From Streptomyces mirabilis (GTDB lineage: Bacteria > Actinomycetota > Actinomycetes > Streptomycetales > Streptomycetaceae), in NCBI RefSeq assembly GCF_018310535.1, contig NZ_CP074102.1, positions 4,402,001-4,466,000 of the forward strand: a stretch of 64,000 nucleotides of DNA. The letters run 5' to 3'. Positions 4,434-5,160 of this stretch are shown piece by piece (position 1 is the first letter of the stretch; each line of letters starts with the position of its first letter). A program made the translations under genes and the position numbers. The notes below the pieces were generated by a model, which saw only the letters and a program-made list of their open reading frames with translations, did not search any database and was not told the DNA's origin.

Positions 4434-4441
4434 CTTCCTGG

Positions 4442-4514
4442 AGCGGACGACGAGGCTCGAACTCGCGACCTCAACCTTGGCAAGGTTGCGCTCTACCAAC
4501 TGAGCTACGTCCGC
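4442..4514 (-). tRNA. tRNA-Gly (anticodon GCC), second copy
   Basis: A 73-nt cloverleaf identical to the copy at 416-488 in acceptor, D and anticodon arms (loop TTGCCAA) but with a different T-arm (stem GCGAG/CTCGT, loop TTCGAGC). Same orientation as the first copy, so the pair forms direct repeats around the ABC/two-component cassette. CCA is not encoded. Confidence 0.95.
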
Positions 4515-4593: not shown

Positions 4594-4665
4594 AGCGGGT
4601 GACAGGAATTGCACACTGCGCCTTCCCCCTGGAAGGGGGATGTTCTGCTACTGAACTACACCCGC
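4594..4665 (-). tRNA. tRNA-Gly (anticodon TCC) with aberrant T-arm
   Basis: A 72-nt tRNA: acceptor GCGGGTG/CACCCGC, D-stem GTTC/GAAC, anticodon arm TCCCC-CTTCCAG-GGGGA (anticodon TCC). The T-arm is abnormal: in the standard register CAGTG faces CCTGT with only one Watson-Crick pair and one G-U pair, and the loop reads TGCAATT instead of TTCRANT, so position 55 is G. The D-loop AGTAGCA has A where G18 is expected. Loss of the G18-psi55 and T-stem features predicts weak EF-Tu binding; see findings. It could still be the cell's UCC glycine decoder. Confidence 0.88.
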
Positions 4666-4762
4666 GTAACTCCTCGGGGTCCGGCTTTTCGGCCTTGCCC
4701 CTCGGCGTGCTCCAGACTCTAGCTGATCAGCGGGGGGTCAGCGCAAGTCGGTTGCGTGCGGG

Positions 4763-4842: not shown

Positions 4843-5160
4843 TCAGTGCGCCTCGGCGAACGCCTCGTAGACCTTCTTGGGGATGCGGCCGCGCGGGGGG
4901 ACGTCCAGCTTGTTGGAGCGGGCCCAGGCGCGGACGGCGGCCGGGTCGGGGGTCAACGCGGTGTGCGTGTACGCCTTCCCGGACTTCGACTGCTTGCGGC
5001 CGGCCTCGAGGTAGGGCGCGAGGGCCTTACGCAGTTTCTTGGCATTGGTTGGATTGAGGTCGATCTCGTACGACTTGCCGTCGAGTCCGAAGGCGATCGT
5101 CTCCGCCGCTTCCGAGCCGTCGATGTCGTCAAAGAGAGTGACCACGACACGCTGCGCCAC
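4843..5160 (-). CDS. lsrL: Lsr2-family nucleoid-associated protein (LsrL type)
   Basis: 105-residue histone-like protein. N-terminal dimerisation domain (MAQRVVVTLFDDIDG, then a two-strand/helix region to about residue 60) and C-terminal DNA-binding domain with the AT-hook-like RGR in PPRGRIPKKV preceded by ARSNKLDV. Lsr2 proteins coat AT-rich, often horizontally acquired DNA and silence it. The position beside purS matches the second Lsr2 paralogue of Streptomyces, called LsrL in S. coelicolor; the symbol is by synteny. The upstream intergenic DNA is AT-richer than its surroundings, which may allow autoregulation (inference). Confidence 0.92.
   Translation of the reverse strand: MAQRVVVTLFDDIDGSEAAETIAFGLDGKSYEIDLNPTNAKKLRKALAPYLEAGRKQSKSGKAYTHTALTPDPAAVRAWARSNKLDVPPRGRIPKKVYEAFAEAH

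Follow-up and report, generated by a model that had tools for sequence, protein, structure and literature searches.

A second tRNA-Gly(UCC) gene with an irregular T-arm

The reverse strand of the window (the whole stretch of 64,000 nucleotides of Streptomyces mirabilis DNA that was analysed) contains a second tRNA-Gly(UCC) gene, located between an lsr2-like gene and an ordinary tRNA-Gly(GCC) gene (Table 1). The Rfam tRNA model detects it with an E-value of 1.9e-9; the adjoining tRNA-Gly(GCC) scores 70.2 bits. ARAGORN makes no call at this gene in the window, but does call its counterparts in several relatives.

Table 1. Features of the irregular tRNA-Gly(UCC) locus (positions in the window; R1 is a covariance model built from 14 sequences)
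Feature	Position	Strand	Basis and remarks
Second tRNA-Gly(UCC) gene	4594-4665	-	72 nt, CCA not encoded; Rfam RF00005 51.1 bits; R1 model 101.1 bits (this sequence is itself part of R1)
Anticodon UCC in loop CUUCCAG	4631-4633	-	Read from the sequence
T-stem 5' strand GCAGUG, six bases instead of five	4614-4619	-	Paired to 4602-4606 with one U unpaired; five pairs in 14/14 alignment rows
T-stem 3' strand CCUGU	4602-4606	-	Sequence and alignment
U bulged out of the T-stem (between 52 and 53)	4615	-	C in L137; shifted by one position in L119
T-loop UGCAAUU	4607-4613	-	G55 at 4612
A18 in the D-loop	4649	-	G18 in the ordinary tRNA-Gly of the genome; G19 kept; A18 goes with G55
-10-like hexamer TAGAGT upstream of the irregular tRNA	4716-4721	-	TAnnnT motif
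Ordinary tRNA-Gly(GCC), neighbour	4439-4514	-	ARAGORN
lsr2-like gene, upstream	4843-5160	-	Pfam Lsr2, 98.5 bits

The gene is preceded by a promoter-like signal. Of 87 distinct upstream sequences, 80 have a TAnnnT hexamer at a distance of 40-80 nt, compared with 12% of shuffled sequences, and in the remaining seven it was seen by eye just outside this range. The -10 motif of S. lividans is described as TAnnnT, and transcript evidence for 65 tRNAs is reported from the same species (PMC8079986). The neighbours are also recurrent: a GCC tRNA gene starts at most 260 nt downstream in 83/87 distinct contexts, and a closely similar lsr2-like frame was recognized by eye upstream in one genome with the irregular tRNA (L114) and one without it (L198, genus g27), where the frame is directly followed by two GCC tRNAs.

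Arm by arm, the gene reads GCGGGTG TA GTTC AGTAGCA GAAC A TCCCC CTTCCAG GGGGA AGGC GCAGTG TGCAATT CCTGT CACCCGC T. The T-arm departs from the regular form that the acceptor, D and anticodon arms show; its stem pairs as G49.U65, C50-G64, A51-U63, G52-C62, a bulged U, and G53-C61. Ordinary elongator tRNAs have an unbroken five-pair T-stem and UUC at positions 54-56; here the stem has the one-base bulge and positions 54-56 are UGC. The other cloverleaf stems, the discriminator U73, C35 and C36 conform to an ordinary elongator, and U33, A37, G19 and C56 are retained as well. UUC is found at 54-56 in 60 of the 62 distinct tRNAs called by ARAGORN in this genome, a set that does not contain the irregular tRNA; the two exceptions are a further UCC gene, L093, and one tRNA parsed badly by our script.

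The sequence-only reading had noted a T-stem out of the usual register, a T-loop TGCAATT with G at position 55, and the replacement of G18 by A. All three hold, the first in the sense that pairing needs a one-base bulge. The same reading had the contact between the D- and T-loops removed; alteration is borne out but removal is not, as G19 and C56 are still present. Because these two bases are kept, and because positions 18 and 55 change in concert from genus to genus (see below), the elbow appears altered rather than simply lost. Few tRNAs of the genome are in this altered state, and most genera of the family have it unchanged; it is therefore not a matter of chance.

The genome (G000) has 74 matches to RF00005. 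ARAGORN, run on the stretches covering these matches, identified an ordinary tRNA-Gly(UCC) gene at G000:C1:5726070-5726140, one tRNA-Gly(CCC), several tRNA-Gly(GCC) and, at C1:527219, another odd UCC gene distinct from that of the window. The irregular tRNA thus exists besides ordinary UCC, CCC and GCC isoacceptors and is not the only UCC tRNA of the genome, a point on which the sequence-only reading had made its proposal depend. It shares much of the acceptor and D-arm with the ordinary UCC and CCC tRNAs, which lack its T-stem insertion, A51-U63, A18 and G55. Pair 51-63 is G-C in the CCC tRNA, the ordinary UCC tRNA and one GCC tRNA, and C-G in another GCC tRNA. An origin from tRNA-Gly(CCC) was considered but not adopted, as the copies disagree: the window copy is closer to CCC (52/71 identical positions) than to ordinary UCC (45/71), but a copy from genus g18 is closer to UCC (53/71) than to CCC (47/71).

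Several other unusual tRNA genes were observed in this genome. The third UCC tRNA-Gly-like gene (L093, G000:C1:527219-527288, 37.3 bits), 0.53 Mb from a contig end, has a T-loop UGCAAGG, also with G55, and U37; unlike the irregular tRNA of the window it has a regular T-stem. Close to a chromosome end, three atypical genes, for tRNA-Ala(GGC), tRNA-Glu(CTC) and tRNA-Trp(CCA), form a small cluster (L081, G000:C1:263940-266760) that perhaps belongs to a mobile element. The second contig, of 518 kb, carries a tRNA-Met(CAT) whose first 50 bases equal the chromosomal copies (L076, C2:464524-464597) and a tRNA-Trp unlike the chromosomal ones (L078, C2:505890-505964).

Distribution and conservation in the Streptomycetaceae

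The irregular tRNA was found by BLAST in its own genome and in all 36 relatives of the same genus. With the R1 model and stricter filters it was found in 132 of 200 genomes of the family, representing 15 of 17 genera; the carriers listed include 63 genomes of the same genus, and the 20 listed out of 68 non-carriers include none. The anomaly of the T-arm, which might have been peculiar to this genome, is thus not confined to it. R1 scores separate the irregular tRNA (lowest 86.3 bits) from ordinary tRNA-Gly (up to 76.0 bits, in L139). The gene is usually single-copy, with two or three tandem copies in some genomes, and ten of the 30 loci found by BLAST, including that of S. mirabilis, share the same sequence (100% identity).

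Among 394 genomes of the class searched at E 1e-18, 40 matches belong to the same genus and four to other families; the latter have the length and score of ordinary tRNA-Gly (75.8-76 bits over 71 nt), and no match of comparable score to the irregular tRNA was found by R1 in the 354 genomes of other genera. R1 also found none in 14/14 genomes of family f3, some of whose assemblies are 77-81% complete. For other families of the order, the idea of a homologue was not retained. G037 (family f2) has a second UCC tRNA of a different kind (L202:3001-3072), with C37 and a T-stem whose 3' side is one base longer, which may be another solution of this type. The other 59 genomes searched contain nothing closely similar to it; the best match, at 79%, is the irregular tRNA of Streptomycetaceae itself.

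In the alignment of 14 sequences, 99.7% of stem cells pair, with 98.6-100% for the acceptor, D and anticodon stems. Changes on both sides were seen at eight stem pairs, as high a count being reached in 0/500 shuffles, although such counts are inflated by the relatedness of the 14 sequences; further pair types, one of five covariation measures, were no higher than in shuffles. Covariation within the T-stem is almost nil and amounts to one pair, G.U to A-U. Judged from this alignment, the fold is under selection.

The T-arm was then compared in 57 loci from 57 genomes (30 + 20 + 7), read by coordinates or by a pattern free of the T-arm; all were found by likeness to the whole tRNA, by BLAST or, for 7/57, by R1, which contains the bulge. 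The one-base excess in the T-stem and A51-U63 are kept in all 57 loci, and CCUGU is identical in all of them. L137 has C as the bulged base, and L119 has the bulge displaced outwards by one step (ACA-U-GG). Statements on invariance rest on these 57 loci and the 14-row alignment only, because the patterns behind the sets of 41 sequences and 87 contexts prescribe A51, CCUGU and much else in the T-arm. The combination at positions 18 and 55 is A/G in 50 loci and G/U in seven, with no mixed case; the seven belong to genera g15 and g18, and one change in the tree may account for the exchange.

R1 found no irregular tRNA in 9/9 genomes of genus g27, 3/3 of g24, and G087, and the non-carriers listed in the 200-genome scan include at least 16 genomes of g27. 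This genus is Kitasatospora, because the identical coordinates of G104, G095 and G120 match records of the Kitasatospora group (Kitasatospora sp. DSM 101779, Kitasatospora sp. GP82 and S. rubellomurinus ATCC 31215). A 40-base pattern from the ordinary UCC tRNA of this genus matched 57 stretches, namely 25 Kitasatospora, 14 Streptomyces, 14 metagenome-assembled genomes of Verrucomicrobia and kin, and four others. The irregular tRNA is absent from the 17 of these stretches that were searched (12 Kitasatospora, four Streptomyces and one Saccharothrix by label; best score 69.9 bits); the Streptomyces labels are probably old names, as was seen for one of the four. In K. mediocidica two tandem 72-nt matches proved to be GCC tRNAs. 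As a separate observation, the pattern is exact in the 14 Verrucomicrobia-or-kin stretches (L216, L217, L226 and others).

Possible functions of the irregular tRNA

The irregular tRNA is real and conserved and very probably functional, and likely a non-translational donor of glycine, with FemX as the first candidate for its user. Glycyl-tRNA synthetase reads C2-G71, U73, C35 and C36; all are kept, and therefore the tRNA should be charged. The extra base in the face of the T-stem gripped by EF-Tu, together with A51-U63 instead of G51-C63, would weaken EF-Tu binding, and the 18/55 exchange would alter the elbow. Once charged, the tRNA could then bypass the ribosome and make up a separate, reserved Gly-tRNA pool. 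The likeliest consumer would be FemX, adding the single glycine branch to the Streptomyces peptidoglycan precursor, since we know of no other non-ribosomal enzyme using Gly-tRNA that is as widespread as this tRNA. This account as a whole, a stable, glycine-accepting donor that avoids EF-Tu and probably serves FemX, has in our judgement an even chance of being correct.

A FemAB-family gene (PF02388, a count that lumps FemX with other Fem-like proteins) is present in 51/51 genomes tested, 31 carriers and 20 non-carriers of the irregular tRNA, the latter being 13 Streptomycetaceae, six genomes of f3, and G037. The presence of the enzyme therefore does not track the tRNA, nor does the enzyme family need it, and FemX was not retained as a phyletic match. 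The FemAB-family protein of S. mirabilis resembles PDB 6snr, a lipid II:glycine glycyltransferase (E 1.3e-29), and also 4ii9, and scores well under the two NCBIfam cut-offs (91.4 of 500 and 22.4 of 260 bits). In S. coelicolor, FemX is reported to add one glycine, and precursors without the side chain could not be cross-linked (PMC4790382). The dedication to cell-wall glycine suggested by the sequence-only reading is thus favoured by the extra gene and its conserved anomaly but not by tracking of the FemAB family, which allows the link to the cell wall without proving it. Retention of G49.U65, G19 and C56, the FemAB family in all non-carriers tested, and the near lack of T-stem covariation count against the donor role.

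The tRNA might instead give glycine to another aminoacyl-tRNA ligase, or act as a regulatory RNA (for instance as the ligand of a T-box, or as a decoy that occupies a tRNA-binding protein); its being missing in Kitasatospora despite the FemAB-family gene would agree with a partner distinct from FemX. Streptomyces have further enzymes using Gly-tRNA, DhpK and Orf11, but each is described for single pathways (PMC12945691) and the tRNA is found in 15/17 genera. As to T-boxes, a search of the genome gave a sole match below the cut-off (40.6 of 93 bits), before an ileS-like frame, and this candidate role was rejected. We regard such alternative partners as doubtful.

A second alternative is a translating but slow reader of GGA that enters the ribosome poorly and provides minor capacity or tuning of GGA-rich genes. 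The anticodon UCC, U33 and A37 would suit it, and GGA is in use, accounting for 25 of the 210 glycine codons in five genes of the window. An ordinary UCC tRNA is, however, present in this genome and in 13/13 non-carriers of the family that were read, and therefore decoding of GGA does not need the irregular tRNA, without which Kitasatospora manage. Moreover, the T-arm anomaly is kept rather than repaired in 57/57 loci, and we consider a decoding role unlikely.

The RNA could also be bistable or lack a T-arm, with a hairpin GCGC-AGU-GUGC in its place. This hairpin appears in the minimum-energy fold of the tRNA sequence from the window and, for 35 of the 41 distinct 72-nt sequences, is predicted to exceed the bulged T-arm in stability by 1.4-2.9 kcal/mol; the T-arm is predicted to be more stable in the five sequences with U55 and in L130 (the 71-nt L129 was left out). 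Thus, on paper, the change from U55 to G would also shift the local fold. Against the hairpin, L130 lacks one of the four pairs, and the CCUGU strand, the same in all 57 loci, would be left free. The same program gives no cloverleaf for the ordinary UCC tRNA, and therefore the predicted energies decide little; we find this structure improbable. Finally, a decaying pseudogene or mere integration site, for which one could cite the missing ARAGORN call in the window and the frequent use of tRNA genes as integration sites, is hardly credible given the 100% identity in ten of 30 loci, the compensatory changes and the presence in 15/17 genera.

Returning to the donor of wall glycine, we tentatively propose that Streptomycetaceae evolved such a tRNA independently of staphylococci and by another route, with a bulge in the EF-Tu-facing T-stem first and the coupled 18/55 exchange later, and that Kitasatospora lost it as their vegetative wall moved towards DL-diaminopimelate. 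The bulge-only state would be that of g15 and g18, if these genera branch early. Hydrolysates of Kitasatospora are reported to contain DL- besides LL-diaminopimelate, and Streptacidiphilus likewise (PMC6113628). Absence of the tRNA in Kitasatospora fits a lower demand for wall glycine, but Kitasatospora is a single lineage, and Streptacidiphilus is reported with the same two forms of diaminopimelate.

The diversion of aminoacyl-tRNAs from the ribosome to wall synthesis is described as unclear in most instances (PMC4052509). A conserved and usually single-copy candidate gene in Streptomyces, which are easily handled in the laboratory, makes this question directly testable, and the lineages provide a natural series for comparison: no irregular tRNA, bulge only, and bulge with the 18/55 exchange. 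It also cautions that such a gene, though annotated as a tRNA for GGA, may take no part in decoding.

Comparison with known non-translational tRNAs

No report of this tRNA was found in the openly licensed literature; a prior description is possible, for example in a 1994 paper that reportedly covered the tRNA genes of S. lividans. The non-proteinogenic tRNA-Gly of S. aureus carry the anticodon UCC and supply glycine for the cell wall to FemX, FemA and FemB. Like the irregular tRNA, they are described as extra to the ordinary set, keep U73, have a changed G18 and occur with a FemAB-family gene (PMC4052509, PMC6097841). T-stem pairs 49-65 and 51-63 are reported to matter for EF-Tu (PMC4052509, PMC9976931), and the S. 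aureus tRNAs are described with A51-U63 for G51-C63, with 49-65 also replaced, and without G18-G19 (PMC4052509). The exchange at 51-63 is shared, with A-U in 14/14 rows of our alignment. In contrast to the A-U described for S. aureus, pair 49-65 is G-U in 12 rows, including the window sequence, and A-U in two; and, where S. aureus is described with UU or CU for G18-G19, here A18-G19 is found and only G18 is changed. The comparison was made with the published descriptions of S. aureus consulted here, in which the bulged T-stem and G55 do not appear. The staphylococcal parallel drawn in the sequence-only reading is thus strengthened by A51-U63, besides the change of G18, but G49.U65 is mostly kept, and the elbow contact is altered and not removed. 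As no comparable match was found in the 354 class genomes of other genera, the likeness would be convergent. By description, the irregular tRNA can also be likened to the pseudo-tRNA of Bacillus cereus, tRNA-Other, which is said not to work in translation and whose deletion is reported to change the morphology of the cell wall (PMC3399842).
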